Positions 3,361-30,000 of a stretch of DNA of 64,000 bases are shown here, piece after piece. The stretch is from a virus. The notes below the pieces were generated by a model. The model was not told the DNA's origin, made no database searches, and saw only the letters and a program-made list of their open reading frames with translations. The stretch is from positions 1 to 64,000 of the IMG/VR virus record IMGVR_UViG_3300034108_001154. The stretch is one strand, 5' to 3'. Positions within the stretch are counted from its first letter, which is position 1; every line of letters begins with the position of its first letter. Position numbers and translations under genes: made by a program.

Positions 3361-3740
3361 TGGCTAGATTAAAACCAAATATAGATATAGGTAGTATAAC
3401 TACAAAGAGGGATAGAGAATCTTTTCAAAATTTTGTGTTGGAAGTAATCAAAGATACGTTTATCTATGAGGCAACTCCAACATCAATTTCTTTAAATGGT
3501 GAACTATTTACTTTAAATTTGGATGATTTTAGATTTGTTTATGAAGATTTAATCGTTGCAGATTCCAAGGATTATTTAGATGTATATTTATACGGAGTGA
3601 AGCAAACAAACGATAGATATTCGGTAACATTTGATGATACTTCTATAACTATAACCTTTACTGAAAGTATAACAAGAGTTCCGGCTGACGTAGTTAGAAC
3701 TGATTTTGAAATTAAAGGTAAAATTACACAAATAGTATAA
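3360..3740 (+). CDS. Small structural protein sharing the gp15-like C-terminal domain
   Basis: A 126-aa protein that opens MARLKPNIDIGSITTKRDRESFQNF. The following giant protein opens similarly (MARLIPQKQIEEVNQFRDS), which suggests a shared docking peptide. The C-terminal half runs from LDVYLYGVKQTNDRYSV to DFEIKGKITQIV and matches the beta-domain of the two preceding proteins in length and in the final charged I-x-G-K/D strand. It is joined to both neighbours by TAATG overlaps. Function unknown; possibly an adaptor between neck or tail and the fibre array. Confidence 0.65.
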   Translation: MARLKPNIDIGSITTKRDRESFQNFVLEVIKDTFIYEATPTSISLNGELFTLNLDDFRFVYEDLIVADSKDYLDVYLYGVKQTNDRYSVTFDDTSITITFTESITRVPADVVRTDFEIKGKITQIV

Positions 3741-9700: not shown

Positions 9701-12058
9701 AGTGGATTTGAATATATTGAATCTAAATGTAAGAGAGATGTAGGATATATTGTAGATGCAGTAGCAACCGATGTATTATATGGTGGAAATGAAAGAAGTG
9801 TAACTGCTGGTGAGTTTTATTACTTATATCCATCACAAGCTACTTCGGTTCAATCCGACCAAACAATCACCGGTGTAAATCATGCATTTGGTTTGGCTGA
9901 TAAAATAGTTAGAAATACTTTATTAGTAACCGCAAGTGCTGAAACTATTGCAAATTATGATGTAATATTAGATAATAAAGGATTAATACAAACAAACGTA
10001 ATTTATTATATAGATTCAGTATATCCATACTTTACTTACAATAGAACTAAGTGTAGAAGAGATGTTGGTTACATTGTAGATGCAATAGCAACCGATTTAC
10101 TATGGGGTGGTAACGAAAGAAGTATTGTAGCAGCTGATTACTATTATAGATATCCATCTGAAGCTACAACTATTCAGTTAAATGAAACTACTGAAGCAAT
10201 ATCATATGTTAAAACAATTATAAACAAATTAATTCAAAATAATATATTACAAGTACCAACTGTAACTTCAAATACTAATAATAATATTAAATTTACTAAT
10301 AGTAATCAAATAAGTGGAGCAGGTACATCTAATATTAATGTATTAAACGCATTAAGTTCATCATTTGGATTAGTAATGAATACTATAACAAATGGAACGG
10401 GTTCACTCCCAGCCATTTCTCAATATACTGCATCGTTAATAGATTCTGGAACTTTACAAGCATATTCATTAATAAAATCAAATATACCATTTATCCAAAA
10501 TGAGGTAATTGCATATATTAGTTCTTCTTGGAGTGGATTCGCATACAATGAAGCTAGTTGTAGTAGAGATGTGGGATTAATTGTAAGTGGGGCAATTGAA
10601 GATTTACTATTTGGTTCAGTATCAGCATCAGTAGTAAATGCTAAATACTATTTTGAATACCCATCAGCGGCAACTGGTTCACAACTATATCAAACATTAG
10701 ATGGAATCAAATACGCAGCTAGTTTAAGTAATAAAATAGCACAAAATATTCAATTCGTAACTGCTTCAAACGAAGTATCTGCATCTTGGCATTTATTAAG
10801 AGATAATAAGGAGTTTATCCAAAATGAGGTAATCGCTTATGTATCATCTTCTTGGAGTGGTGTTTATTATAATGAAGATAAGTGTAAGAGAGATGTTGGT
10901 TATTTAATTGATGCAGCTGCAACTGACCTTTATTATGGTGGAAATGAGAGAAGTGTAACCGCTGGTTCATTCTATTATCTATTCCCATCTGCGGCTACTC
11001 AAAATGGAGTTCCTTCAACAACTTCTCAATTGGACCCAACTGTTGATGGTATAATATACGCAAGTGGATTATCACAAAAAGTAATTCAAAATGTAGAATT
11101 TGTACAACCATCGGCTTCAGTATTAGTAGGTGCTGATTTATTAATTGGAAATAAAAGATTCATCCAAACTGAAGTAATTCAATATCTTTCATCATCTTGG
11201 AGTGAATTTTATTATAATGAAGCAAGTTGTTCTCGTGATATTGGGTATATTATAGATGCAGCTAGAACGGATTTAGTTTATGGTGGAAATGAAAGAAGTA
11301 TTAAGGCTGGAACGTTTTATTACTATATTCCATCGGAAGCAACAACTAAACAAAAACCACAAACAATTGATGGTATTGATTTTGCTAAGGGAATGGCTGA
11401 AAAGGTAATTTTGAAAGAACAATTAGTAAGACCATCATTCCAAACAAAATTATCGGTTGATTTATTAAGGGGAAGTAAAAAAACATTACAATCAATCGCA
11501 ATATCATATACCGCTGGAGCATTTCCTAACTTTGTTTATAATGAAGAAAAGTGTTATAGAGATACTGGATTTATTGTAGATGCAATAGCAACGGATTTAT
11601 TATATGGTGGAAATCTAAGAAGTGTTAGAGCAGCATCATCATATTATACTGGGGTATATGGTTCAGCAGCAGTAGTTGTAAACGAACAAAAGAAAGAAAC
11701 AGCTGAAACTAATAGATATTTAAGAACACAATTCCAAAGAATAGTGAGAAATGCTCCTGTTGAAGAATTTGGTTCTTTGATAATTACTACTGGACATGAC
11801 TTTTCTTATTCTGGAGCTGGAGTAACTTATAAGGCATTACCTTTTAACCAGGGTGGAGCTGGAGTTGCTGACCCAACGAAAGAAATTACCGAATTGGCTG
11901 GAGGTAGAGTTTACTTTACATCTGGTAACGAGCTTGGTGACTTTAAAATTGGTACGGGGCTTATAATTAATCAAGCAACCGGAACATTGCAAGGTAGAAC
12001 ATTCTCTCGTTCATTGTTCTCATTAGTAACACCATTCTCATTAGCATTAGAAGGATAA
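3740..12058 (+). CDS. Giant 2772-aa tail fibre/virion protein with pectin-lyase-like head and 13 tandem repeats
   Basis: N-terminal GSLxVSQS/ITGSVEITGS strands (residues 25-75) form a stalk. Residues about 105-400 resemble the right-handed beta-helix (pectin-lyase-like) domain of T4-like phage structural proteins: TIYVSSTNGNDNNSGTSP, ITVDAGTYLEENPIELPRNT, then SPYVQNCSMIS. From about residue 610 a 100-120 aa module recurs 13 times; its core is YNEASCSRDVGYIxDAxATDLLYGGNERSxxAGxFYY-PSxAT. Between these lie about 12 copies of a shorter SSFxIVxDIIxNGTGSLP module. Residues about 1142-1270 resemble a cupredoxin fold without copper ligands. The last 100 residues (FGSLIITTGHDFSY to the end) form a distinct cap. 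Likely a very long tail-associated adhesin or whisker. The repeats are seen directly; the function is inferred. Confidence 0.75.
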   Translation: MARLIPQKQIEEVNQFRDSISVGNSVFISGSLLVSQSIDIGTRTSDKQRITGSVEITGSLQIDGALSFANAASRLDATASFSDISVDTQRFGGILVEDFAKSDSTIYVSSTNGNDNNSGTSPQFPLRTIKKAAQLATPGDDGRYGLPTGSLFSGFRITVDAGTYLEENPIELPRNTTVWGAGLRVTKIIAKNENEDLFWVNSGCYLAEMTFAGLRVYPSVDDSQSGFAIAFAPNAFITTSPYVQNCSMISNQENSFLELYEDIPAGGGGLNVDGNRIHPDSPLASMVLDAYTQVAPNGVGCQVVGRGFIQLVSFFTNFSAYSVKVIDGGHAVLLNSNTSFGDYGMYASGSRFITGSGGNFDAFLNVQDNYSIIVNTIEGGLSTIPALVPNTENGIRVTDPNVLPQYFLSEDSSNEVSDIVKADFKLISSIIDNGIVNKPSLIAKSSINGYSSQSVYNISGENQYTSSTTASLQNIASVDTNFNILYDIIERGNPATESYVRISNVSHSIQATDIVQYKTSAVDSPTITTTNNSFDTIMSIVAGGIAPNIVSNTSASFKFSNVNQYQTGTTSSLQTINSVSSSFSIVYDTIEYGTGDLPTIIPSSSNASTSSEKQNAYNLLINNIPFIQSETIAYMSSSWSEFSYNETTCKRDISYIVSGAAYDILYGGNEESIKSARFYYLYPSEATTTQLEPTLTAVKYASGVAQNILKGNQYITSSANINNGYNIIFNNKDFVRAETIAYISSSWSEFEYNEVSCSRDIGYILDAVGTDLKYEGNDRSVTAGQFYFRYPSEATTTQLNQTLDAIRYAKRLTEKLLNNDTFVTASNSVIGAVDLMRKNRSLIQTETITYINTQYPNLDYNQAKCRRDVGYIVDNITTDLLYGGNERTETAGLYYFLFPSVANTTQLTETINALQYVNALTDKILISEILPTPKIGLNIDSNIKVTAFNSVTSSISASNTEVTLVSQSFGIIEDIIRYGTDYIPSAIVGNSNDYIWNINNPINVSGITQIQSTLANANTQSISNNVNTIIKIIESGSSVTTEQTIGTDRNGAPISTVGIPKNSYGSNLITTVIGTTIPAEIQLVKNTAAGIKFGNGLQITSSISASATEIQKVSSSFSIVTDIIKYGISGSLSLSGSSEYSTYYEVIAFESANYLFNENQLNKFDNVLTASIEDGSIDPTLTLKRGELYTFSVNSLNIVNATELDFRPFYIKTDIKPGLRNQYTKGVTNNGVTFGTLTFIVPFDAPDTLYYVNGKDIEASGIINIVDELPISDTQRYIEIPSLGDFEVVANTINNIKVTNIPQIQSIYTASISESLSVSSSFATTIDILFNGVSNLPTTITNVSGLIKKRELSQYTSSFAVSSALRNTISSSFNIVTNIVTNGTGSVPALIENTNDLIKVTSVPQIIGLQSGSITQVNNVSSSFANIINIIKNGTGSIPVEISNINGLTKFSSTEQFTASLSASLEDVTFVSNSISIVSTIITNGSGSYITASLYGAASTQPSTLAAYQIIKQNIPFIQIETLSYLSSSWSTASYNEASCSRDIGLIVSGAAEDLLYNTISSSIVNGKYYLEYPSAAETTQINQTLDGIEYASKLTQKLIQNIIFETASMEVSASYNLIRKNREFVKSETIAYLSSSWSTFDYNESLCRRDIGHIIDAVSTDLLYGGNERSNTAGEFYYKYPSSATVSGSVSPTTAAQLYPTLDGINYARRLVQNIVVNNQFALAPDSRTNAYDLIVENKSLIQSEVVSYVSSSWSGVLYNDISCSRDIGYILDAVATDTLYGGNERSSVAGEFYYLFPSRATNGGVPSENNQLDSTLSGINYAKGMVNQLLQNNIFVTASLQTIGVTNLIIDNKPLIQNEVISYISSSWSNFQYNEASCSRDVGYILDAVATDFYYGGNERSITAGTFYYLFPSAATVSGSSSPSVDAQLYPTVDGVTYAQRLTNKIINNITLVTASLERQTTYDLLLDNKLLIQNEVISFMSSSWSGFEYIESKCKRDVGYIVDAVATDVLYGGNERSVTAGEFYYLYPSQATSVQSDQTITGVNHAFGLADKIVRNTLLVTASAETIANYDVILDNKGLIQTNVIYYIDSVYPYFTYNRTKCRRDVGYIVDAIATDLLWGGNERSIVAADYYYRYPSEATTIQLNETTEAISYVKTIINKLIQNNILQVPTVTSNTNNNIKFTNSNQISGAGTSNINVLNALSSSFGLVMNTITNGTGSLPAISQYTASLIDSGTLQAYSLIKSNIPFIQNEVIAYISSSWSGFAYNEASCSRDVGLIVSGAIEDLLFGSVSASVVNAKYYFEYPSAATGSQLYQTLDGIKYAASLSNKIAQNIQFVTASNEVSASWHLLRDNKEFIQNEVIAYVSSSWSGVYYNEDKCKRDVGYLIDAAATDLYYGGNERSVTAGSFYYLFPSAATQNGVPSTTSQLDPTVDGIIYASGLSQKVIQNVEFVQPSASVLVGADLLIGNKRFIQTEVIQYLSSSWSEFYYNEASCSRDIGYIIDAARTDLVYGGNERSIKAGTFYYYIPSEATTKQKPQTIDGIDFAKGMAEKVILKEQLVRPSFQTKLSVDLLRGSKKTLQSIAISYTAGAFPNFVYNEEKCYRDTGFIVDAIATDLLYGGNLRSVRAASSYYTGVYGSAAVVVNEQKKETAETNRYLRTQFQRIVRNAPVEEFGSLIITTGHDFSYSGAGVTYKALPFNQGGAGVADPTKEITELAGGRVYFTSGNELGDFKIGTGLIINQATGTLQGRTFSRSLFSLVTPFSLALEG
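5581..11752 (+). repeat. 13 protein-level repeats of a Cys-Arg-Asp / YGGNERS module
   Basis: Thirteen units each contain, in order, FIQxExIAYxSSSWS, YNExxCxRDxGYIxD, YGGNERS, FYY-x-(Y/F)PSxAT and a T-I/V-D-G-I-x-Y-A helix. Two divergent units (near 8,380 and 10,570) read RDxGLIVSGAxEDLL and lack GGNERS, and each opens a new block after the SSFxIV modules. The nucleotide copies differ mostly at third positions, so the protein repeat is old or under selection. Confidence 0.85.
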
Positions 12059-12951: not shown

Positions 12952-15900
12952 ATGAGTCAATTATTAAGTGGTAAGGTAAAAGTAACGCTTCCTCAGAATG
13001 TTTCTGAAGATAGATATGAGTTTCTTCAACTGAATGAAGCAGAACCTAATTTAGGGGTACCTATTAGTGGTAGTTTATCGAGCGGTTCAGTTGCTTTATT
13101 AGCATCTGATGAGTTTGGTAATCGTTTATTTGTAACAAAATTACAATTTCCTGAGTATAGTGGTTCATTTAGTGGTTCATTTCAAGGAGATGGTTCACGA
13201 TTAACCAATTTACCCTTAGTAAAAGATGCTTCTAGATTAATTTCTGGTTCAGCATCGGCATCAATTTCACCACAAACCGGATTTTTAGTAAATGTATCAT
13301 CATCTTTTGATGGTGATATGGATATAAATGGTGATGTTAGGGTTACTGGTGACTTATATGTTAATAATAGGATAGTTGCAAGAGAAATATTGGTTCAAAT
13401 CATATCATCTTCAATTATTTTTTCATCTGGGTCAAACCGATTTGGAAATTCATTAGTAGATTTACAAGAATTCACTGGTTCTGTATCAGTTACAGGTTCA
13501 TTTGATGTAAATGGTGAGGGTAGATTCAGTAATAACGTTTACATATCAAATACAGCTTCAGCATCCTTCTTTGAGGGTGATGGTAGTAAGTTATTTAACC
13601 TTCCTGCGGCAGCAGAATCACCAAGAATCGTTGATGGGGCTGTTACGGCATCCGTTAATGAATCTTATGGGTTTAGATTAGAAGGAACTACAAGAGCAGA
13701 GTTCAGTTCTTCACTTTTTGTGAGTGGAAACATAGAAATTGTTAGTGGTTCATCATTTAGTGGTAGTGGTGCTAACTTATTTGATATTCCGAGGGCAGCT
13801 TTAACGCCTGACGCTCTTCTGTCGGCATTTATTACATCAGGTTCGGTCACCGCATCGGTTAATCCAAATTATGGGTTTCGATTAGAAGGTACCAATAGAG
13901 CAGAATTTAGTTCTTCACTATTTGTAGCTGGTAATGTAACCGCATCGATGTTTACTGGTAGTGGTGCTGGTTTATTCGATATTCCAAGGGCAGCATTAAC
14001 ACCGGATGCATTGGTTTCTCCATTAATTGGTAGTGGAAGTGTAACGGCATCGGTTAATCCAAATTATGGATTTAGATTAGAGGGTACCAATAGAGCAGAG
14101 TTTAGCTCATCGGTATATGTAGATGGTAATGTAACTGCATCAATGTTTAGTGGTAGTGGTGCTGGTTTATTTAATATTCCGAGAGCAGCTTTAACGCCTG
14201 ATGCACTTGTATCACCATTAATTAGTAGTGGAAGTGTAACCGCATCGGTTGACCCTAAGTCTGGATTTGTTGTAACTTCAATCGAAAGCGGTTCACAATT
14301 TACAGGTTCATTATTTGTAAGTGGTGGTATTTCTATAAATAGTGGTTCAATTTTTAGTGGTAGTGGTGCTGGTTTATTTAATATTCCGAGAGCAGCATTA
14401 ACACCTGATGCATTATTGAGTACATTTATATCATCGGGTTCAGTAACAGCGTCTGTTTCTCCAAACTTTGGATTCAGAGTTGAATCACAACAAAGTGGTT
14501 CTGAGTTTACAGGTTCAGTTGATGTTAGTGGAAACGTATCCGCATCAATGTTTAGTGGTAGTGGTGCTGGTTTATTTGATATTCCTAGGGCAGCATTAAC
14601 ACCGGATGCATTATTATCAAATTTAATAACAAGTGGAAGTGTAACGGCATCCGTTGACCCTAAAGCTGGATTTGTAGTAACTTCAATCCAAAGTGGTTCA
14701 CAATTTAGTGGTTCAGTTAGATTTAGAGATAATCTTATAGTAGCTGGTAATGTAACCGCATCGATGTTTACTGGTAGTGGTGCTGGTTTATTCAATATAC
14801 CAAGAGCAGCATTAACACCGGATGCACAATTATCAAATATAATAGCAAGTGGTTCAGTTACCGCATCGGTAACTCCACAAAATGGATTTCAAGTAATTTC
14901 AGTTGCAAGTGGTTCGGAATTTACAGGTTCGGTTAGACTTAGAGATAACCTTAATGTAAGGGGAACTGTAACTGCATCAATGTTTAGTGGTAGTGGTGCT
15001 GGTTTATTTAATATTCCATTATCTGCATTAGCTGAACAAGTAGCTCAAGCTACTAGGATAGCAACCGGTTCAGTAACGGCTTCTGTTGGAAGTAATTTTG
15101 GATTTAAAGTAGAATCTGCACAATTTGGTTCTGAATTTACTGGTTCAATTGATGTAAGTGGTAGTGTAACTCTTAAATCTGGTTCATTTTACTCTGGTAG
15201 TGGTGAGGGATTATTTAATATTCCATTATCAGCATTATCTGAAGAGGTAATTAATAGAAATTTCATAGCAGATGGGCAAGTAACTGCATCTGTTGATAAT
15301 ATAAATGGATTTGTAGTAACATCACCATTAAGTGGTTCTACATTTAAAGGTTCAGTTTATGTTACTGGGTCTGTAAATGTAAGTGGTTCATTATTTGTAA
15401 GTGGTGGTGGTATTATTCAAGCATTAACTGGTTCATTCTTTAGTGGTAGTGGGCAGGGGTTATTAAACATACCTCGTTCGGCATTAACTGAAGATGCACT
15501 TATTTCAACTGAAATAAAATCAGGTTCAGTAACGGCATCGGTATCTCCTAATATTGGATTTGTAGTAAATTCGGCTCAAAGTGGTTCGGAATTTACTGGT
15601 TCAATAGATGTATCTGGTTCGGTATCAGCATCTTTATTTAGAGGTGATGGTAGTGGATTAACAAATATAACTATACCTGTAATTACCGATGGTAATGTAA
15701 CTGCCTCAGTTGATGATTCTAATGGATTTATAGTTACATCTCAGGCATATGGTTCACAATTTACTGGTTCTGTTAGAGTTAATACATTTGTAACTGCATC
15801 TGAATTTAGAGGTAATTTTGCAGGAGATGGTTCTCAAATTACTAATATTCAAATATCTATTATCCAAGATGGTGAAATAACTGCATCTGTTTCAAATGAG

Positions 15901-18900
15901 AATGGTTTTGTAGTTGATTCTTTCAAAAGTGGTTCAACTTTCTATGGTAATATAATAGCAAATAATGGTATTGTATCTAATGATGATATCATAGCAAATG
16001 GAAACATACAAGCTAATATTGGTTCATTCTTTAGTGGTAGTGGAGCTGGATTAACTAATATTCCTTTATCTGCATTTGCTGAAGAGGTAATTGCATCAAC
16101 TCGTATCCAAAGTGGGTCTGTTACTGCATCAGTATCTCCTAATTTTGGATTCAAAGTAGAATCATTGGATAGTGGTTCACAATTTACTGGTTCTGTTAAA
16201 GTATTAGGGCAAGTAAAAATTCTATCTGGTAGTGGATACTTTAGTGGTAGTGGTGAGGGGTTAACAAATATCCCCCGTTCAGCATTAACTGAAGATGCGT
16301 TACTTTCATCATTCATTGTAAGTGGAAGTGTAACTGCATCGGTAGCACCAAATACTGGGTTTGTTGTTATATCATATCAAAGTGGTTCAACTTTCTTTGG
16401 TGATATTCAATTAGCAACTGGTTCTTTCTCTGGTAGTGGTGCAAGATTATTTGATATACCAAAATCAGCAATTTCTGATTTAGATACTTCTAAAATATTT
16501 AGTGGTTCGGTTACCGCATCAACTCACCCTCAAAATGGATTTATTGTAACATCAGTTGTAAGTGGTTCAACTTTCTTTGGTGATGTTCAATTGGTAACTG
16601 GTTCTTTCTCTGGTAGTGGTGCAAAATTATTTAACATACCAAGAACAGCACTAACACCTGATGCACTTATTAGTACAACTATTACATCTGGTTCAGTTAC
16701 CGCATCAGTAGCACCAAATACTGGATTTGTTGTAACATCAATTGAAAGTGGTTCAAAATTCTTTGGTAATATAGAATTAGTAACTGGTTCATTTAGTGGT
16801 AGTGGTAGAAATTTATTCGATATTCCTTTTTCTAATTTAACTGGAGATTCAAATAGAATTGCTAGTGGTTCTGCTACTGCATCTATTTCACCAAATTTAG
16901 GATTAGTTGTTAATACATCCGCATCTATTGATGGTGATTTAAATGTAGCTGGGGCAATCAACGCAACAGAAATAAATGTAACGTTTATAAATTCGGAAGT
17001 AATTTATTCTTCTGGTTCAAATATATTTGGTGATTCATTGACAGATATACAACAAATGACTGGTTCGGTTAAAATAACTGGTTCTTTGACTGTTGATGGT
17101 GTAATCACTGGTGATGGTAGTGGATTATTTAATATCCCACAATCAGCACTTACTGAAGCAGCAACATTAATTGCTAGTGGAAGTGTAACGGCATCGGTTA
17201 ACCCTAATAACGGATTTGTTGTAACTTCAATCGAAAGTGGTTCTACATTTAGTGGTTCACTTTTTGTAAGTGGTGGTGTTTCTATAAATAGTGGTTCAAC
17301 ATTTAGTGGTAGTGGAGCTGATTTATTCAATATCCCAATATCAGCATTTTCACCTGATGCACAAGATGCAATTAATTCACTATTGGCAATCCAAAGTGGA
17401 ATATTGGCTAGTGGTAGTGTAACGGCATCAGTTTCGAATGAGTTTGGATTTAAAGTAGAATCAATTGATAGTGGTTCACAATTTACAGGTTCATTATTTG
17501 TAAGTGGTGGAGTAGAATTAAGTAGTGGTTCATCGTTTAGTGGTAGTGGTGCTAGATTGTTCGATATACCAAGAGCAGCATTAACGCCTGATGCACTTTT
17601 ATCAAACTTAATCGCAAGTGGTTCAGTTACCGCATCAGTAACACCTGATAACGGATTTGTTGTAACTTCAATCGAAAGTGGTTCTACATTTAGTGGTTCA
17701 CTTTTTGTAAGTGGTAATATTGAGGTTGTTAGTGGTTCATCATTTAGTGGTAGTGGTGAAAACTTATTTAATATCCCACTAACCGCACTTTCTACTGAAG
17801 CAATTGAAGCACTTATTTCAACTGAAATTAAAAGTGGTAGTGTAACCGCATCAGTAACACCTGATTTTGGATTTGTAGTAGTATCAGCTGAAAGTGGTTC
17901 TGAATTTACTGGTTCAGTTGATGTAAGTGGAAGTTTATATGTAACCCAAACTATAAGTTCAAGTATTGTAAAAGCAAATGAATTATCTGGTTCATTCTCT
18001 GGTTCATTCTTTGGAGATGGTGGTGGATTAACTAATATTTCACTTGCTAACTTATCATTTGATGTATATCGTTTAGTGAGTGGTTCAGTTACGGCATCCG
18101 TAACACCAACTGAAGGATTCAAAGTTGAATCTTTGGATAGTGGTTCTAAATTTACTGGTTCAATTGATGTATCTGGTTCAATAACTATTGATGGTATTTA
18201 TACTGGAGATGGTAGTGGATTGACAAATATTGATATTGCTAATTTGGCAATTGATACTTCTAGAATTTACACTGGTTCCGTTACTGCTTCGGTATCTACT
18301 GATGGCCACTTTAGAGTTTTAGATGGTACTACATTAAGAGCAATTAAATCCGAATTTAGTGGTTCAGTTTATGTATCTGAATCAATATATGTAAACAAAT
18401 TTATATTTGGTGATGGTACTTTTATCACAAACGTAACCGCTGCAGCATCTCCAAGAATTTCATCTGGTTCAGTAACGGCTTCAGTTTCACCTAATTTTGG
18501 ATTTAAAGTAGAATCCGCACGAAGTGGTTCTGAGTTTACGGGTTCAGTTGATATTAGTGGTTCAATATCGGCATCTTTATTTAGTGGTGATGGTAGTGGG
18601 TTATTCAATATTCCATTAGAAGCACTTGAAGATTTACAATTAGTAAAAATTAACTCTGGCTCTGGTATAGCAATTATTGACCCATTAAAATTAGATGTAA
18701 ACGTTCCAATAACAGCATCTCGATTTGATGGAGATGGTAGTGGATTATTTAACATTCCTGCAAACGCATTACAAGACCTTCAATTAGATAGAATTATATC
18801 TGGTTCAACTCAGGCGGTAATTTCACCTGATAAAGGATTTGAGGTTGGTACAAAAACATCTATATCTGGTTCACTTAGTGTAAGTGGTGGATTATTTGTA

Positions 18901-21900
18901 ACTGGTGGAAGTGTTATTTTATCTTCTGGTTCATCATTTGTTGGAGATGGTAGTGGATTGACTAACATCAATATAGCTAACTTATCATTTGAAACTTCAC
19001 TTTTACAAAGTGGTTCATTTACAACGGTACTTTCACCAAACTTTGGATTAGTTGTTAACGCATCCGCATCAGTTAGTGGAAACTTAAGTGTTGAAAAAAA
19101 TATATACGCACCTGTAATTTATGGTGGACAAATTACCGGTTCATTCTATGGTGGATACTATGGAGAGGGTGATGCTGAAGATAGAGATATTCTTATCTAT
19201 GATGCGGCCCGTTCTAAATATGTACCTGTACCTGAGAGTACACCAACAACCGCAGAACCATTTACAAATGTAACTGAAGTAACGGTTGTACACAACTTTG
19301 ATGTTGATTATCCAATCGTACAAGTTTATGAAGCTGGTACAAATGGAATGATTATACCTCAAGCTATCATACCATTGGACAGTGATAGAGTTAGAGTAGT
19401 ATTTAGTGGTTTAACTTCTGGAGTTGTAGTAGTTGGTAGTGGTGGTTCAAAAATAAGTGGAGCAATTAGTGGTAACAACGTAATTGGAATTGTACCATCA
19501 GCGTCTAGAGCAATTTCAGCAGAAACTGCTGATACTGCATTAAATGTAGCTGGTATTGATTCGGCATCTCTTGCATTATTAAACGATTTACAAAACTTTG
19601 TAAGAAACGAACAAACATCATCTATGACGGTGTTGAGTTCATCTTTCGCTCTTACTGCATCTTACGCATTAAATGCTGGTGAAGCTGGTAGTGGTGGAAC
19701 TGATTTATTCATTTACTATACAAGTTCGTTAGTACAAACTGAAACTGGAAAAATTAACTTTACTGGTTCTGGTGTAAGTGTAATTGATTCTGGTTCTGAT
19801 GGTATATTAGTAACTATCTTAGGTGGCGGTGGTACTGGTGATGGTGATTTACTATCATCTCAAACCGCATCAATGTATGTGTTCTCATCATCATTTGCAT
19901 CAATAGCCGAATACGCATTAAACGCAGTTGGTGGTGGAAGTGGTACTGGTTTCCCATTTGAAGGTTATGCTGCACTAACGGGAAGTTTAAATGTATCGGG
20001 TAGTTTAATTGTAACTGGTAGTACATTCATACAAAATTTACCATTAGGTTCAACAAATTTAGTGGTTACCTATAACCCAACAACTGGAAGATTAGAACAA
20101 CAATCAATCGATGCAGCTGTTGGTACGAGTGGAGTAGATGGTACATCTGGAACTGGTGGTACATCTGGAACTGGTGGTACATCTGGAACAAGCGGAACGA
20201 GTGGAACGAGTGGAAGTAGTGGAACTTCTGGTACGAGTGGAACATCAGGTACATCTGGAACATCAGGTACATCTGGAACAAATGGTACGTCTGGTTCATC
20301 TGGGACAAGTGGAACAAGTGGAACATCTGGAACGTCTGGTACTTCAGCAACATCTGGAACATCTGGAACGTCTGGTACTTCTGGAAGTAGTGGAAGTAGT
20401 GGTTCATCTGGAACAAGTGGGACAAGTGGAACATCTGGAACGTCTGGTACTTCAGCAACATCTGGAAGTAGTGGAACATCTGGTTCTTCTGGAAGTAGTG
20501 GTTCTTCTGGAACATCTGGTTCAAGTGGTTCTTCTGGAACATCTGGTTCAAGTGGTTCAAGTGGTAGTAGTGGTTCATCTGGAACATCTGGTTCAAGCGG
20601 AAGTAGTGGTTCAAGCGGAAGTAGTGGAAGTAGTGGAACCTCTGGTTCATCAGGTTCGTCTGGTTCATCTGGAACAAGCGGAACGAGTGGAAGTAGTGGA
20701 AGTAGTGGTTCTTCAGGAACATCAGGTTCGTCTGGAACCTCTGGTTCATCAGGTTCATCTGGAACAAGTGGTTCAAGTGGAAGTAGTGGTACGAGTGGAA
20801 CGTCTGGTTCAAGTGGTACTACTGGTACATCTGGTTCTTCGGGAACATCGGGCACTTCTGGTTCTTCTGGAACATCTGGTAGAGAAGGTGGTAGACTTTT
20901 CGAAGTAATTAATGATGGATTCAATTATGCATTTGATGGATATGATGATGCTACATTCCCAACCTTAACATTAGTAAGAGGTGAATTATTTTACTTTGAT
21001 GTAAGTGGAGTTTCAGCATCACACCCATTTGCATTAAGATTATCAAGCGGTAATACTTCAGTTGTAGATGGTACAATAAATAATGACCCATTAAATGGAT
21101 TAGCTGGAACAACTGATTTAATAGCATATAGAGTACCTGAAGATGCACCAAACAATATTGTTTATCAATGTGCAGTTCATTCATCAATGATTGGAATTAT
21201 TGAAATTGTTGATAAAAACGGAACTTCTGGTACATCTGGTACTTCTGGTAGTAGTGGAACATCTGGTACGAGTGGAACTTCAGGTTCTTCTGGGACAAGT
21301 GGAACCTCTGGTTCTTCTGGAACAAGTGGAAGTAGTGGTACTTCTGGTACCTCTGGAACGAGTGGTAGTAGTGGAACTTCTGGTTCAAGTGGTAGTAGTG
21401 GTTCAAGTGGAAGTAGTGGAAGTAGTGGAACATCGGGTTCATCAGGAAGTAGTGGAAGTAGTGGGACATCGGGTTCTTCTGGTTCATCTGGTTCATCTGG
21501 TTCGTCTGGAACGAGTGGAACGAGTGGAAGTAGTGGTTCTTCTGGTACGAGTGGTACGAGCGGTGAAAGTGGTTCATCTGGAACTTCTGGTTCAAGCGGG
21601 ACAAGTGGAGTTGATGGTACTTCTGGTTCAAGTGGAACAAGCGGATTAGATGGAACATCGGGTACATCTGGTACATCGGGAACTTCTGGCACTTCTGGTA
21701 CATCTGGGACAAGTGGTACATCGGGAACTTCTGGAACTTCTGGAACTAGTGGTGAGAATGGTTCATCTGGAACATCTGGTTCTTCTGGAACATCGGGAAC
21801 GAGTGGAACATCAGGTACATCTGGAACAAGTGCAACATCTGGAACCTCTGGTACAAACGGAACGAGTGGAAGTAGTGGTACTTCTGGTTCATCTGGTTCA

Positions 21901-24900
21901 ACCGGTACTGATGGTACATCGGGAAGTAGTGGTTCTTCTGGGACAAGTGGTACGAGTGGTTCAAATGGAACAAGCGGAAGTAGTGGAACATCTGGAACAA
22001 GTGGTTCAACGGGAACGGATGGGACAAGTGGTTCTTCTGGAACAAGTGGTACGAGTGGTTCGAATGGTACATCAGGAAGTAGTGGTACTTCTGGTTCTTC
22101 TGGTTCAACTGGTAGTAGTGGAACTTCTGGTACTTCTGGTTCTTCTGGGACAAGTGGGACAAGTGGTTCGAATGGAACGAGTGGAAGTAGTGGAACTTCT
22201 GGTTCAAGTGGTTCAACGGGAACGGATGGTACATCTGGTTCATCTGGTTCATCTGGAACAAGTGGAGTTGATGGAACGAGTGGAAGTAGTGGAACTTCTG
22301 GTTCAACTGGAACGGATGGTACATCTGGTTCATATGGTACATCTGGAACAAGTGGTTTATCTGGTTCAAATGGTACATCTGGAACTTCAGGTTTAAATGG
22401 AACTTCAGGTTCGTCTGGTACAAGTGGTTCATCTGGTTCATCTGGTACTAATGGTACGTCTGGTTCATCGGGAATTAGTGGAACTTCTGGGACAAGTGGA
22501 AGTAGTGGAAGTAGTGGTACATCTGGTTCAAGTGGTACATCTGGAACATCTGGAACCGCAGGTACATCTGGTTTAGATGGAACTTTATTTGGAAGTAGTG
22601 GTACTTCGGGTTCTTCTGGTTCAACTGGAACATCGGGAAGTAGTGGAACTTCTGGAACAAGTGGAGTTGATGGAACATTCTTCGGTTCTTCTGGTTCATC
22701 GGGTACTTCTGGTACAAGTGGAAGTAGTGGAACAAGTGGTTTGAGTGGTTCAAGCGGTACATCTGGAACTTCTGGAACAAGCGGACAAGATGGAACATTC
22801 TTTGGTTCATCTGGAACCTCTGGAACATCTGGTGTTGGTACTAATGGTACATCCGGTTCAAGTGGTACATCTGGAACTTCTGGAACAAGCGGACAAGATG
22901 GAACATTCTTTGGAAGTAATGGAACTGCTGGTACATCTGGTACATCTGGTTCATCTGGAACAAGCGGAAGTAGTGGAACTGCTGGTACGTCTGGAACAAG
23001 CGGACAAGATGGAACTTTATTTGGAAGTAGTGGTACATCTGGTACATCAGGTCAAAGTGGTTCATCAGGTACTTCTGGTTTAGGTACAAACGGAACCTCT
23101 GGAACAAGCGGACAAGATGGAACTTTATTTGGAAGTAGTGGAACATCTGGAACAAGTGGTCAAAGTGGTTCATCAGGTACTTCTGGTTTAGGTACAAACG
23201 GAACCTCTGGGACTAGTGGACAAGATGGAACTTTATTTGGAAGTAGTGGAACATCTGGGACAAGTGGTGAAAGTGGTTCATCTGGTACAAGTGGTATTGG
23301 GACAAATGGAACATCAGGTACTTCTGGACAAGATGGAACTTTATTCGGTTCGTCTGGAACATCTGGTACAAGTGGTGAAAGTGGTTCATCAGGAACATCT
23401 GGGTTAGGTACAAATGGTACTTCTGGAACAAGTGGACAGGATGGTACGTTATTCGGTTCATCTGGTACATCTGGAACATCAGGTGAAAGTGGTTCATCTG
23501 GTACTTCTGGGTTAGGTACAAATGGAACATCAGGTACTTCTGGGCAAGATGGAACTTTATTCGGTTCATCTGGAACATCTGGTACATCAGGTGAAAGTGG
23601 TTCGTCTGGAACATCTGGTGTTGGAACTAATGGAACATCGGGTACTTCTGGACAAGATGGAACTTTATTTGGTTCGTCTGGTACAAGCGGAACATCAGGT
23701 GAAAGTGGTTCTTCTGGAACATCTGGAGTTGGTACGAATGGAACATCAGGTACTTCTGGACAAGATGGAACATTATTTGGTTCATCAGGTACTTCTGGTA
23801 CAAGTGGTGAAAGTGGCTCATCTGGTACTTCTGGTATAACGGGCACCGCTGGTACTTCGGGAACATCTGGACAGGATGGAACTTTATTTGGTTCTTCTGG
23901 AACATCGGGAACATCTGGTATTGGTACTGATGGTACATCTGGTATAACGGGTACTGCTGGAACATCTGGGACAAGTGGACAAGATGGAACTTTATTTGGA
24001 AGTAGTGGTTCTTCTGGAACAAGCGGAGTAAGTGGAAGTAATGGAACATCTGGCATTGGAACAAATGGTTCATCTGGAACAAGTGGACAAGATGGAACTT
24101 TATTCGGAAGTAGTGGTACTTCTGGTACATCTGGATTAGGTACTAATGGTACATCTGGATTAGGTACTAATGGTACTTCTGGAACATCTGGGCAGGATGG
24201 AACTTTATTTGGTTCATCCGGTACATCTGGTACATCGGGTTCATCTGGATTGGGTACAAATGGTTCATCTGGAACCGCAGGTACATCTGGTTTAGATGGA
24301 ACTTTATTTGGAAGTAGTGGTTCATCTGGAACATCTGGAATGGCTGGTTCAAGTGGTTCAAGTGGTTTAAGTGGTACATCTGGTATTACTGGTGATGGTG
24401 GTTCATCTGGTACATCTGGTTCATCTGGGATATCGGCTACAATTACTGGAACTACTAATAACGGAGTTCTTACACTAAATGGGTCATCACCCAATATTAC
24501 AGCTGAAAGTGGACTTACTTATGATGGTACTTTATTAGATGTAACGGGTAACGCAACTATATCAGGTAATATAACTGGAAATAATGTAACTGCAAATACA
24601 TCAGTTTATACACCTAACTTTAGAGAATTATTTTCTAATTTAGGTACGGGTGGAAGTGTAACAATTAATTTAACAACTGCAAATAATTTTAGATATACGG
24701 CTAATGCAAATGTTACTTACACATTCTCAAACCCACCATCATCTCCTCAGGGATTTGGATTTACGTTGGTTTATGTGAATGGTGGTAACTTTACAACAAC
24801 ATGGCCGGCATCAGTAGATTGGGCTGGTGGTATAGCACCTGCGTTAACTGCAAATGGAACTGATATTTTAGTATTCTATACTTATGATGGTGGAACAACA

Positions 24901-24936
24901 TATTATGGATTCTTATCCGCAGCAAATTTAAGTTAA
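12952..24936 (+). CDS. Giant 3994-aa tail fibre with GSGxGLFxIP modules, collagen-like shaft and embedded cupredoxin
   Basis: Residues about 75-2030 hold some 28 modules built on GSVTASVxPNxGFxVxS, GSxFTGSxxVSG and G(S/D)GxGLFNIP; this looks like a segmented beta-shaft. Residues about 2390-2645 and 2757-3826 are collagen-like Gly-Thr/Ser-Ser triplets. Between them, residues about 2650-2755 form a cupredoxin-like domain with candidate copper ligands His2691, Cys2740, His2743 and Met2746. The C-terminal 165 residues (from SATITGTTNNGVLTLNG) form a globular tip ending YYGFLSAANLS. A near-identical linker follows the collagen block in the 3927-aa fibre. Probably a long, flexible trimeric adhesion fibre. 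The reading frame is open throughout, with no interruption. Domain calls are by eye; the trimer is inferred from collagen-like sequence. Confidence 0.8.
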   Translation: MSQLLSGKVKVTLPQNVSEDRYEFLQLNEAEPNLGVPISGSLSSGSVALLASDEFGNRLFVTKLQFPEYSGSFSGSFQGDGSRLTNLPLVKDASRLISGSASASISPQTGFLVNVSSSFDGDMDINGDVRVTGDLYVNNRIVAREILVQIISSSIIFSSGSNRFGNSLVDLQEFTGSVSVTGSFDVNGEGRFSNNVYISNTASASFFEGDGSKLFNLPAAAESPRIVDGAVTASVNESYGFRLEGTTRAEFSSSLFVSGNIEIVSGSSFSGSGANLFDIPRAALTPDALLSAFITSGSVTASVNPNYGFRLEGTNRAEFSSSLFVAGNVTASMFTGSGAGLFDIPRAALTPDALVSPLIGSGSVTASVNPNYGFRLEGTNRAEFSSSVYVDGNVTASMFSGSGAGLFNIPRAALTPDALVSPLISSGSVTASVDPKSGFVVTSIESGSQFTGSLFVSGGISINSGSIFSGSGAGLFNIPRAALTPDALLSTFISSGSVTASVSPNFGFRVESQQSGSEFTGSVDVSGNVSASMFSGSGAGLFDIPRAALTPDALLSNLITSGSVTASVDPKAGFVVTSIQSGSQFSGSVRFRDNLIVAGNVTASMFTGSGAGLFNIPRAALTPDAQLSNIIASGSVTASVTPQNGFQVISVASGSEFTGSVRLRDNLNVRGTVTASMFSGSGAGLFNIPLSALAEQVAQATRIATGSVTASVGSNFGFKVESAQFGSEFTGSIDVSGSVTLKSGSFYSGSGEGLFNIPLSALSEEVINRNFIADGQVTASVDNINGFVVTSPLSGSTFKGSVYVTGSVNVSGSLFVSGGGIIQALTGSFFSGSGQGLLNIPRSALTEDALISTEIKSGSVTASVSPNIGFVVNSAQSGSEFTGSIDVSGSVSASLFRGDGSGLTNITIPVITDGNVTASVDDSNGFIVTSQAYGSQFTGSVRVNTFVTASEFRGNFAGDGSQITNIQISIIQDGEITASVSNENGFVVDSFKSGSTFYGNIIANNGIVSNDDIIANGNIQANIGSFFSGSGAGLTNIPLSAFAEEVIASTRIQSGSVTASVSPNFGFKVESLDSGSQFTGSVKVLGQVKILSGSGYFSGSGEGLTNIPRSALTEDALLSSFIVSGSVTASVAPNTGFVVISYQSGSTFFGDIQLATGSFSGSGARLFDIPKSAISDLDTSKIFSGSVTASTHPQNGFIVTSVVSGSTFFGDVQLVTGSFSGSGAKLFNIPRTALTPDALISTTITSGSVTASVAPNTGFVVTSIESGSKFFGNIELVTGSFSGSGRNLFDIPFSNLTGDSNRIASGSATASISPNLGLVVNTSASIDGDLNVAGAINATEINVTFINSEVIYSSGSNIFGDSLTDIQQMTGSVKITGSLTVDGVITGDGSGLFNIPQSALTEAATLIASGSVTASVNPNNGFVVTSIESGSTFSGSLFVSGGVSINSGSTFSGSGADLFNIPISAFSPDAQDAINSLLAIQSGILASGSVTASVSNEFGFKVESIDSGSQFTGSLFVSGGVELSSGSSFSGSGARLFDIPRAALTPDALLSNLIASGSVTASVTPDNGFVVTSIESGSTFSGSLFVSGNIEVVSGSSFSGSGENLFNIPLTALSTEAIEALISTEIKSGSVTASVTPDFGFVVVSAESGSEFTGSVDVSGSLYVTQTISSSIVKANELSGSFSGSFFGDGGGLTNISLANLSFDVYRLVSGSVTASVTPTEGFKVESLDSGSKFTGSIDVSGSITIDGIYTGDGSGLTNIDIANLAIDTSRIYTGSVTASVSTDGHFRVLDGTTLRAIKSEFSGSVYVSESIYVNKFIFGDGTFITNVTAAASPRISSGSVTASVSPNFGFKVESARSGSEFTGSVDISGSISASLFSGDGSGLFNIPLEALEDLQLVKINSGSGIAIIDPLKLDVNVPITASRFDGDGSGLFNIPANALQDLQLDRIISGSTQAVISPDKGFEVGTKTSISGSLSVSGGLFVTGGSVILSSGSSFVGDGSGLTNINIANLSFETSLLQSGSFTTVLSPNFGLVVNASASVSGNLSVEKNIYAPVIYGGQITGSFYGGYYGEGDAEDRDILIYDAARSKYVPVPESTPTTAEPFTNVTEVTVVHNFDVDYPIVQVYEAGTNGMIIPQAIIPLDSDRVRVVFSGLTSGVVVVGSGGSKISGAISGNNVIGIVPSASRAISAETADTALNVAGIDSASLALLNDLQNFVRNEQTSSMTVLSSSFALTASYALNAGEAGSGGTDLFIYYTSSLVQTETGKINFTGSGVSVIDSGSDGILVTILGGGGTGDGDLLSSQTASMYVFSSSFASIAEYALNAVGGGSGTGFPFEGYAALTGSLNVSGSLIVTGSTFIQNLPLGSTNLVVTYNPTTGRLEQQSIDAAVGTSGVDGTSGTGGTSGTGGTSGTSGTSGTSGSSGTSGTSGTSGTSGTSGTSGTNGTSGSSGTSGTSGTSGTSGTSATSGTSGTSGTSGSSGSSGSSGTSGTSGTSGTSGTSATSGSSGTSGSSGSSGSSGTSGSSGSSGTSGSSGSSGSSGSSGTSGSSGSSGSSGSSGSSGTSGSSGSSGSSGTSGTSGSSGSSGSSGTSGSSGTSGSSGSSGTSGSSGSSGTSGTSGSSGTTGTSGSSGTSGTSGSSGTSGREGGRLFEVINDGFNYAFDGYDDATFPTLTLVRGELFYFDVSGVSASHPFALRLSSGNTSVVDGTINNDPLNGLAGTTDLIAYRVPEDAPNNIVYQCAVHSSMIGIIEIVDKNGTSGTSGTSGSSGTSGTSGTSGSSGTSGTSGSSGTSGSSGTSGTSGTSGSSGTSGSSGSSGSSGSSGSSGTSGSSGSSGSSGTSGSSGSSGSSGSSGTSGTSGSSGSSGTSGTSGESGSSGTSGSSGTSGVDGTSGSSGTSGLDGTSGTSGTSGTSGTSGTSGTSGTSGTSGTSGTSGENGSSGTSGSSGTSGTSGTSGTSGTSATSGTSGTNGTSGSSGTSGSSGSTGTDGTSGSSGSSGTSGTSGSNGTSGSSGTSGTSGSTGTDGTSGSSGTSGTSGSNGTSGSSGTSGSSGSTGSSGTSGTSGSSGTSGTSGSNGTSGSSGTSGSSGSTGTDGTSGSSGSSGTSGVDGTSGSSGTSGSTGTDGTSGSYGTSGTSGLSGSNGTSGTSGLNGTSGSSGTSGSSGSSGTNGTSGSSGISGTSGTSGSSGSSGTSGSSGTSGTSGTAGTSGLDGTLFGSSGTSGSSGSTGTSGSSGTSGTSGVDGTFFGSSGSSGTSGTSGSSGTSGLSGSSGTSGTSGTSGQDGTFFGSSGTSGTSGVGTNGTSGSSGTSGTSGTSGQDGTFFGSNGTAGTSGTSGSSGTSGSSGTAGTSGTSGQDGTLFGSSGTSGTSGQSGSSGTSGLGTNGTSGTSGQDGTLFGSSGTSGTSGQSGSSGTSGLGTNGTSGTSGQDGTLFGSSGTSGTSGESGSSGTSGIGTNGTSGTSGQDGTLFGSSGTSGTSGESGSSGTSGLGTNGTSGTSGQDGTLFGSSGTSGTSGESGSSGTSGLGTNGTSGTSGQDGTLFGSSGTSGTSGESGSSGTSGVGTNGTSGTSGQDGTLFGSSGTSGTSGESGSSGTSGVGTNGTSGTSGQDGTLFGSSGTSGTSGESGSSGTSGITGTAGTSGTSGQDGTLFGSSGTSGTSGIGTDGTSGITGTAGTSGTSGQDGTLFGSSGSSGTSGVSGSNGTSGIGTNGSSGTSGQDGTLFGSSGTSGTSGLGTNGTSGLGTNGTSGTSGQDGTLFGSSGTSGTSGSSGLGTNGSSGTAGTSGLDGTLFGSSGSSGTSGMAGSSGSSGLSGTSGITGDGGSSGTSGSSGISATITGTTNNGVLTLNGSSPNITAESGLTYDGTLLDVTGNATISGNITGNNVTANTSVYTPNFRELFSNLGTGGSVTINLTTANNFRYTANANVTYTFSNPPSSPQGFGFTLVYVNGGNFTTTWPASVDWAGGIAPALTANGTDILVFYTYDGGTTYYGFLSAANLS
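13180..18990 (+). repeat. About 28 tandem GSGxGLFxIP shaft modules
   Basis: The motif G(S/D)Gx(G/N/K)L(F/T)(N/D)I(P) occurs about 28 times, typically 65-90 residues apart, each followed by a helix-like (R/L)(A/S)AL(T/S)(P/E)(D/E)A and then SGSVTASV. Some stretches of neighbouring copies are nearly identical at the DNA level (for example around 14,150 and 14,360), which suggests recent unit duplication or gene conversion. Confidence 0.85.
20122..20880 (+). repeat. Collagen-like Gly-X-Y block A
   Basis: About 250 residues of uninterrupted Gly triplets, almost only GTS and GSS with a few GTN, GTA/GTG and GTT. There is no proline, so any triple helix would be of the Thr/Ser-rich bacterial and phage type. 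Codons for each triplet vary (ACA/ACT/ACG/ACC; AGT/TCA/TCT/TCG/AGC), so the DNA is much less repetitive than the protein. Confidence 0.9.
20889..21215 (+). other. Cupredoxin-like domain inside the fibre, copper ligands present
   Basis: This segment of the 3994-aa fibre reads TLVRGELFYFDVSG, SASHPFALRL, then YQCAVHSSMIGIIEIVD. The His (2691) plus Cys2740-x2-His2743-x2-Met2746 set matches a type 1 copper site, with the short C-x2-H-x2-M spacing known from amicyanin. It sits between two collagen-like blocks, so it would be exposed on the shaft. Metal binding is inferred from sequence alone. Confidence 0.65.
21220..24430 (+). repeat. Collagen-like Gly-X-Y block B with a 36-residue superrepeat
   Basis: About 1070 residues of Gly triplets. 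From about 22,572 to 24,315 a GxDGT(L/F)FG interruption recurs about 17 times. In the regular part the period is 36 aa (108 bp): GTN-GTS-GTS-GQD-GTLF-GSS-GTS-GTS-GES-GSS-GTS-GL. Each period has one four-residue (GTLF) and one two-residue (GL) break of the Gly-X-Y register, so the phase is restored once per repeat. Confidence 0.9.
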
Positions 24937-25829: not shown

Positions 25830-26282
25830 ATGTATTTAAAATTAGAAAACGGAAATATAAGATATCCTTACACAATTAGTGAACTTAAATTGGAAAATCC
25901 AAATACAAGTTTCCCTGCGGTGTTAACTAATGAGGTATTAGAATCATTTGATGTATATTATGTAGAAGCTACTGAATATACTGATGATTATACAAAAAAC
26001 ATAGAGGAAGGTACTCCAATCCTATCCGATTCATCATATATTCAAGTTTGGAATATAACCGATGCAACTGAATCAGAAATTTCAGTAAAACTTGAAGAAA
26101 AATGGGTAGAAATTAGAATTATGAGAGATGCTTTATTAGCACAATCAGATTGGACCCAATTTCAAGACTCACCTATAAGTGGTACTACTTTAGTTGAGTG
26201 GCAAACATATAGACAATCTTTAAGAGATGTAACATCTCAACAAAATCCATATAATTTAAGCTGGCCGGCTAAACCAATGTAG
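25830..26282 (+). CDS. Tail fibre assembly chaperone-like protein
   Basis: A 150-aa protein. The C-terminal third has the spaced motif RDALLAQSDWTQ, DSPISG, W-x2-YRQSLRDV, then NPYNLSWPAKP. This is the conserved pattern of phage tail fibre assembly/chaperone proteins (a DWT-x-x-D-P-L then W-YR-x-LRD family). The N-terminus (NIRYPYTISELKLENPNTSFP) also fits that family. Such proteins are usually encoded next to the fibre they help to fold. Here it follows three fibre-type genes and precedes the last giant. It starts 7 nt after the previous stop. Not expected in the virion. Confidence 0.7.
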   Translation: MYLKLENGNIRYPYTISELKLENPNTSFPAVLTNEVLESFDVYYVEATEYTDDYTKNIEEGTPILSDSSYIQVWNITDATESEISVKLEEKWVEIRIMRDALLAQSDWTQFQDSPISGTTLVEWQTYRQSLRDVTSQQNPYNLSWPAKPM

Positions 26283-27010: not shown

Positions 27011-30000
27011 ATGAAGTACGCAGGTAAGAATCCAAATGGTATTAATCAGGTCAGTCAAAGTTTACTATCGGTTGATGTAAACGGAGTACAGCAATTAACG
27101 GTATCAACGGCATCGTTAGATATCAACACTAAATTATCAGTTACTAATGGTGTTTTGGCATCATCATATACTGGTTCTGCTTTTAGTGGTAGTAAATTTG
27201 TTGGTTCTCAATTTTCCGGCTCATTCTCTGGTTCATTTAGTGGTGATGGTTCAAATTTAACCAAAATTCCATTTGAAGGATTAACCGCAGATGCACAATC
27301 TAAAATTCAAAGTGGAGATGGGACAGCTAGAATATCAAATAATAAACTTTCTATAAATGTTAATACTGATATAACCGGTTCTTTATTAACTACTGGAACG
27401 GTATCGGCATCTTTCTTAGCTGGAGATGGTTCAAACATAACAAATATATCAGCGGCATCGATTGGTGATATTAATCGATTAAAATCAGGTTCAGCAACCG
27501 CAACCATTTCTCCTAATAAAGGATTAGAAGTAAATGTAGGAATCGTAACTGAAAAATATTTAGGAGTTAGTGGTTCTGCTCAAATAGCTGGTAATTTAAA
27601 TGTAGATGGTACAACAACTTTAAAAAGTTTAAATGTAGCAGGTACAATTACCGCAACTGAATTAAAAACAACATACATATCTTCATCAATAATATTTTCA
27701 TCTGGTTCCAATAAATTTGGTGACCAATCTTCGGATACGCATGAATTTACTGGTTCGTTAAGAGTTAAAGATACAATACAAATACCATCATATACATCAA
27801 ACCCAGTATCTGGTAAAGTTGGTGAAATATATTATAACACTTCAGATACTAACATATATCGTTGGACTGGATTGATATGGGAACCTGCGGCTGGTACGGC
27901 TGGTACATCAGGTACGAGTGGTACTTCAGGTACTTCAGGTACGTCTGGGACAAGTGGTACTTCTGGGACAAGTGGTAGTAGTGGTTCTTCTGGAGCTAGT
28001 GGTTCAAGTGGAAGTAGTGGTTCAAGTGGAAGTAGTGGAACATCTGGGACAAGTGGAACATCTGGTAGTGGTGGAACATCTGGTAGTGGTGGTTCATCTG
28101 GTACAAGCGGAAGTAGTGGTACGAGAGGAACTAGTGGTTCATCTGGAACTTCTGGGACATCTGGTACAAGCGGAAGTAGTGGAAGTAGTGGAAGTAGCGG
28201 TACATCTGGAACTTCTGGAACAAGTGGAACTTCAGGTTCATCTGGTTCAAGTGGATTCGGTTCAAGCGGAACATCTGGAAGTGGTGGAACATCTGGTACA
28301 AGTGGTACACGTGGTACCTCTGGTTCTTCTGGAACCTCTGGTTCATCTGGAACATCGGGTTCTTCTGGAATAAGTGGTTCGTCTGGAACATCAGCAACAA
28401 GCGGAAGTGGTGGTACATCCGCAACAAGCGGAAGTAGTGGTTCAAGTGGAAGTAGTGGAACATCTGGTTCATCTGGTTCATCGGGAACGAGTGGTACTTC
28501 TGGAACAAGAGGAACTTCGGGAACTTCAGGAACTTCTGGGACTAGTGGGATATCTGGTTCGTCTGGTTCTTCTGGTTCTTCTGGAACATCTGGAACATCT
28601 GGAATATCTGGTTCAAGTGGTAGTAGTGGTTCAAGTGGAAGCTCGGGAACTTCTGGAACAAGTGGTACTCGTGGTACTTCTGGAACGAGTGGTATAGATG
28701 GAGTTGTTGGAGATGGTGGTACATCAGGTTCGTCTGGGAGTAGCGGTAGTAGCGGAACCTCTGGAAGTAGTGGTTCTTCTGGAACCTCTGGAACTAGCGG
28801 TTCATCAGGTACAAATTCAACGGCTGGTACGGGTGGAACGTCTGGTTCATCTGGAAGTAGTGGTTCATCTGGTACAAGTGGAACGAGTGGAACTTCAGGT
28901 TCTTCTGGGACAAGTGGAAGTAGTGGTTCTTCTGGAACATCTGGTTCTTCTGGAAGTAGTGGAACATCTGGAACATCTGGAACGAGTGGAATAAATGGAT
29001 TAATAGGAAGTAGTGGTACAGGTGGAACTGCTGGAACTGGTGGTACATCTGGAAGTAGTGGTTCGTCTGGAACATCTGGCACAAGCGGAACTTCTGGAAC
29101 ATCTGGTACAAGCGGAACTTCTGGAACAAGAGGTACTGCTGGTAGTGGTGGTTCAAGTGGTTCTTCTGGAAGTAGTGGAACATCTGGAACGAGTGGAACA
29201 TCTGGTTCTTCTGGAAGTAGTGGAACTTCTGGGACAAGTGGAAGTAGTGGAACTTCTGGGACAAGTGGAAGTAGTGGAACTTCTGGAACAAGGGGTACTG
29301 CTGGTAGTGGTGGTTCATCTGGGACTAGTGGAAGTAGTGGAACATCTGGAAGTAGTGGAACTTCTGGTTCGTCTGGTTCAAGTGGAACTTCTGGAACGAG
29401 TGGAACTTCTGGAACGAGTGGAACATCTGGTAGTAGTGGAACATCTGGTTCATCTGGTGTATTAGCATTAACTGGTACAACTGATAATGGTGTAATCACA
29501 TTAAACGGAACTGCACCAAACGCAACCGTTGAAAGTAATTTAAGATTCGATGGTACTACATTAGCAGTAACTGGTAACGCTACAATTAGTGGTGACCTTA
29601 CTGTAAGTGGTACAACAACATATATTAATACAACAACTCTTAATGTAGGTGATAATATCATTACATTAAATGCAGATATTGGAGCAGCAACTGCACCAAC
29701 TGAAAATGCTGGTATAGAAGTTAAGAGAGGAAACGCAGCAACAAAACAATTTTATTGGAACGAATCAACTGATAGATGGTACGCTGATTCTGATTTACAA
29801 TCTGCTGGTAATTTATATGGTACTCAAATAGATACTGGGCAAGGATTAACTGAAGTTCATTTGATGAACCAAAACGTTCGTACATCTGATACTATAACAT
29901 TTGCTAGACTAAATCTTACAACAACAGGTAATGATTATTATTTTGCAGCAAATGGATTGACAATGACAAGTATCTCAACTGGTGAAACCATTTGGAGAAA

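Follow-up and report, generated by a model that had tools for sequence, protein, structure and literature searches.

The question raised by this locus is whether the collagen-like fibre of a tailed phage carries a copper site and, if so, what a metal would do in a virion. The window, by which we mean the whole 64,000-nt stretch analysed, lies in a virus record of 143,445 bases, and its tail genes include a tail sheath and a T4-type baseplate protein, a neighbourhood which indicates that a contractile-tailed phage (myophage) encodes the fibre ORF 12952-24936:

12952-24936, plus strand: fibre protein, 3994 aa, with fibre repeats, a Gly-X-Y shaft, a predicted cupredoxin knob and a tip (from the translation and the Gly-X-Y count)
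25830-26282: tail assembly chaperone
38922-41258: tail sheath, 778 aa
41911-42684: T4-type baseplate protein

The tail sheath was closest to that of Microcystis phage Mel-JY01 (47%) and to those of Flavobacterium phages, and a search for a photosystem reaction centre gene across the 143,445-base record, made in an attempt to assign the host, found none. The N-terminus of the fibre gave no match in a similarity search. Two other large proteins are encoded in the window: a giant protein of 3927 aa (27011-38794) that contains 49 His but just 2 Cys, and a protein of 2772 aa (3740-12058) in which a repeat around YNE.SC.RDIGYI.DA..TDL.YGGNERS occurs in many copies, each with one conserved Cys.

The 3994-aa fibre opens with a fibre repeat in numerous copies, continues with Gly-X-Y sequence and ends in an apparent tip domain. 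Gly recurs at every third residue in long runs, as in other collagen-like sequences, and we counted 374 triplets (in runs of at least six) in which X and Y are almost exclusively Ser or Thr; because this sequence is nearly without Pro, it is uncertain whether the shaft forms a stable triple helix. Long minus-strand ORFs across the shaft are probably by-products of the repeat composition. At residues ~2644-2755 the (Gly-Ser/Thr-Ser)n shaft is interrupted by a non-repetitive domain, which is located mid-shaft and off the tip:

20464-20895, plus strand: Gly-X-Y block upstream of the cupredoxin domain, 48 triplets, residues 2505-2648
20881-21216, plus strand: predicted cupredoxin domain, residues 2644-2755 (AlphaFold2, Foldseek and VIA-align matches, family profile)
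21022-21024, plus strand: His2691, predicted N-terminal copper ligand (sequence; aligned with the His of plastocyanin)
21169-21171, plus strand: Cys2740, predicted copper ligand and sole Cys of the protein (sequence and alignment)
21178-21180, plus strand: His2743, predicted copper ligand (sequence and alignment)
21187-21189, plus strand: Met2746, predicted axial copper ligand (sequence and alignment)
21220-21831, plus strand: Gly-X-Y block downstream of the cupredoxin domain, 68 triplets, residues 2757-2960

An initial annotation had placed a cupredoxin between two collagen-like blocks, and indeed the Gly-X-Y sequence is uninterrupted for the 48 triplets before and the 68 after it. The four residues that it had named were all found exactly as described, in the frame of ORF 12952-24936. 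Its span for the domain (20889-21215) marked the right region with a start that was one base out of frame (the codons run from 20890), and the best bounds are 20881-21216. The fibre has one Cys (Cys2740) and five His, two of which are ligands. The spacing of Cys2740, His2743 and Met2746 (C-x2-H-x2-M) is that of the loop spelled CTPHPFM in the title of 2vmj, one of the Foldseek matches, which we take to be the amicyanin loop; the separation of His2691 from Cys2740 is 49 residues in the fibre domain and presumably shorter, at about 39, in amicyanin.

Whether these residues could form one site depends on the fold. The AlphaFold2 model of the domain (alignment of 35 sequences) was of high confidence, with a mean pLDDT of 94.4 and a pTM of 0.88. 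Foldseek against the PDB returned 40 chains at E up to 1e-3 (best 1.5e-4), almost all of them multicopper oxidases, nitrite reductases and single cupredoxins, with no phage protein among the fold matches listed, and the best VIA-align match (Z 10.0, rmsd 2.8, 99 residues aligned) was a three-domain copper nitrite reductase, over its residues 24-136. From sequence information alone, a search with the family profile found a cupredoxin domain of a nitrite reductase (E 0.0012) as well as plastocyanin (E 0.041) and amicyanin (E 0.55); in its alignment the C-x2-H-x2-M motif coincides with the copper loop, and the upstream His is matched to that of plastocyanin. The predicted domain is a Greek-key cupredoxin beta-sandwich with an upstream His and with the Cys-His-Met loop between its last two strands: His47 of the model is just ahead of strand 49-52, Cys96 closes strand 91-96 and Met102 directly precedes strand 103-109, positions that agree with the usual ligand topology of a type 1 site.

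The domain of the window alone had no match in Pfam, in NCBIfam or in a single-sequence PDB search; PF00127 was matched by 11 of its 35 relatives (best E 0.011) and the amicyanin model TIGR02657 by 10 (best E 0.0014), with the window domain matched by neither. For the window domain, kinship with cupredoxins came to light solely through its fold and the family profile. It has the fold, the four ligands and the C-x2-H-x2-M loop in common with the small cupredoxins (amicyanin, plastocyanin, pseudoazurin, auracyanin) and the cupredoxin domains of copper nitrite reductases, to all of which it is related in sequence at the profile level only. However, the known cupredoxins are electron carriers or enzyme domains that are exported to the periplasm or thylakoid, whereas the fibre domain belongs to a virion shaft and has no export signal.

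The claim that a collagen-like fibre contains a cupredoxin fold whose type 1 ligand set is intact is thus supported: the predicted fold does not set the four residues apart, and they fall on the type 1 ligand columns. The sole Cys, the use of two of the five His, the conservation at 30-40% identity described below and the predicted cupredoxin fold together place the ligand set beyond chance. On this modelling, the domain is a cupredoxin by fold and by ligands and type 1 by anatomy, with a predicted copper site. With moderate confidence, we propose that it is a globular, copper-loaded knob in the collagen-like fibre shaft of a myophage.

The window holds a second copy of the domain, in the 2772-aa protein encoded by ORF 3740-12058:

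7163-7540, plus strand: second cupredoxin copy, all four ligands lost (Arg, Asn, Asp, Ala)

This copy retains the scaffold, and although its model is weaker (pLDDT 73), it too matches cupredoxins, at Z 9.9. Because it keeps the fold, the fold does not depend on the ligands, and the idea that the ligands are required for folding was rejected. A copy of the same kind with all four ligands intact is present in a related contig (L017). Virion members that keep the fold with no ligands, including the copy at 7163-7540, are what would be expected if the fibre domain were likewise a metal-free beta-sandwich spacer, in which ancestry or packing accounts for the four residues and the virion contains no metal. 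We consider such a spacer unlikely in view of how the ligands behave among relatives, in which they are retained at just 30-40% identity and lost jointly, whereas packing residues would decay one at a time.

We collected 314 distinct domains, and clustering at 70% gave 88 clusters, 61 of which had all four ligands, 23 none and only 4 a partial set. If the ligands varied independently, 65 partial clusters would be expected, and 10,000 shuffles never gave fewer than 51. Several of the searches used Cys-containing patterns, which biases the collection toward intact members; among the 54 domains that were not selected by pattern, 25 had four ligands, 24 had none and 5 had a partial set. The all-or-none split therefore persists without the pattern-selected domains, and we rejected the idea that the conservation is a mere artefact of how the relatives were found. 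Relatedness also inflates the statistic, and a tree was therefore built leaving out the ligand columns. On this tree 6 switches between presence and absence of the site suffice, of which starred branches force at least 3, so that few independent events underlie the all-or-none count. Among near relatives the domain had a dN of 0.14-0.19 against a dS of 0.5-1.0, a divergence that is mainly silent.

Judged from these sequence comparisons, selection appears to act on the four-ligand site as a whole. Although the fold can do without the ligands, they are kept or lost jointly, which points to a bound metal as their value, and the retention of Met together with Cys and His speaks for copper. Joint keeping and loss is most likely explained by a metal, with copper foremost. 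Cupredoxins made in the bacterial cytoplasm can pick up zinc, and so the site might hold another metal in the virion, such as zinc or iron. We regard this as improbable, because nearly all clusters retain the axial Met jointly with the other three ligands, and its thioether favours copper. Iron has been reported in other phage fibres, where HxH sites predicted to bind it lie at the tips of T4-type fibres (PMC11705849). Those sites are likewise metal sites predicted in a phage fibre, but they differ in metal, fold and ligands; moreover, a scan of all 3994 residues of our fibre found no HxH motif, which rules out an HxH iron site in this protein and argues against iron.

The domain is by no means unique to the 3994-aa fibre, given its many phage and metagenomic relatives. 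It matches phrog_677 (gp9 of cyanophages, a baseplate wedge tail fibre connector) at the C-terminus, with E 1.8e-18 over profile positions 317-410 of 412, and among the 342 phage records matched, nearly all from cyanophages, the C-terminus of gp9 is its typical location. The gp9 domain belongs to the same family with its ligands intact, but it ends a connector of ~400 residues, whereas in the 3994-aa protein the domain interrupts a collagen-like shaft; the latter lacks the N-terminal connector part and the small size of gp9, and is not a gp9 but shares the domain only. His, Cys, His and Met are kept in the gp9-type domains of P-SSM7, Syn9, S-WAM1, P-TIM40, S-CAM22, S-RIM14, S-SSM7 and S-RIM12 and in fibre proteins of P-SSM2, S-SCSM1 and Sf-CH8. 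In metagenomic virus contigs we found 27 distinct domains flanked by Gly-X-Y blocks, and all 27 had the C-x2-H-x2-M loop; cyanophage connectors and fibres were also among the best matches of the domain in a virus structure library. The relatives thus define, at the level of sequence, a widespread module of virion proteins in which many members are intact and some have no ligands, a point absent from the initial annotation. Two further observations concern its distribution: the fibre gene adjoining cyanophage gp9 (L020, L102-L181) encodes more cupredoxin-like domains, including one ligand-free clade, and in Actinomycetia phage DSL-LC01 the domain, with its C-x2-H-x2-M loop, is in a gene (L324 1541-2911) that adjoins two collagen-like genes.

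Cellular proteins carry the domain as well. Exported lipoproteins of many Flavobacteria and marine group II archaea bear it with the C-x2-H-x2-M loop at up to 65% identity, although these are exported cellular proteins, whereas the phage copy is built into a fibre of the virion. On a Bacteroidetes-binned contig, a 133-aa exported lipoprotein (L262 1876-2277) consists of a signal peptide, a short Gly-X-Y piece and a cupredoxin domain with all ligands. Its identity with the phage domain reaches 65%, which is what one would look for if the phage imitated an exported host cupredoxin, or if the knob were recognised by a host receptor for copper uptake or for copper proteins, in the manner proposed for iron under the Ferrojan Horse hypothesis; the spread of such lipoproteins and the tie between iron in fibre tips and receptors (PMC11705849) fit the same idea. 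The knob, however, lies mid-shaft, away from the tip, and in many cyanophages the domain ends a baseplate connector, and we think a lure or mimic rather unlikely, slightly more so than the metal-free spacer.

It was also considered that a copper centre in the virion might exchange electrons with proteins of the host surface or detoxify oxidants. Single-domain cupredoxins with a C-x2-H-x2-M ligand loop are electron carriers, but the virion domain has no known partner and none was suggested by the neighbouring genes searched; a redox role therefore seems to us very improbable, the least probable of the readings.

Under the copper-loaded knob that we prefer, electron transfer would be unnecessary. 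The apo-domain would fold in the host cytoplasm, and copper would be taken up after lysis, either at the cell surface or from the water around it. The bound copper would lock the beta-sandwich and shield the only cysteine of the fibre, giving a rigid, metal-loaded knob that may stabilise the shaft and present a surface for attachment; a trimeric collagen-like shaft would give each fibre three such knobs.

The initial annotation suggested that copper might serve redox, stabilise the trimer or help to bind a host copper protein, roles that stay conjectural. It knew of no described copper role in phage fibres, and we found none in the open-access papers searched. Nor did we find there a cupredoxin linked to phage tails, tail fibers or virions (which leaves its absence unproven), or plastocyanin-like proteins linked to the cyanophage baseplate. 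For cupredoxin together with cyanophage, only the work on Borgs surfaced; the paper on the structure of the A-1(L) tail says nothing of a cupredoxin, and PMC8115048 treats nirK as a metabolic gene and merely lists gp9.

In virion proteins of hundreds of marine phages the four residues are almost always retained or lost as a set, a pattern suggesting that these virions carry copper. Further, we put forward tentatively that the virions of a large share of aquatic myophages, including cyanophages, are copper proteins: their cupredoxin knobs, on fibres and on baseplate connectors, would load copper extracellularly, and adsorption or virion stability would depend on the metal state. Discussion of metal in phage tails has until now concerned iron in HxH sites; if the proposal is true, a type 1 copper site, conserved in virion proteins of abundant aquatic phages, would add a second virion metal. 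It would provide a spectroscopic handle on virions by which the proposal is testable, and would give a likely function to a domain left unnamed by annotation in gp9 and in fibre proteins. It would also possibly tie dissolved copper to phage infectivity.
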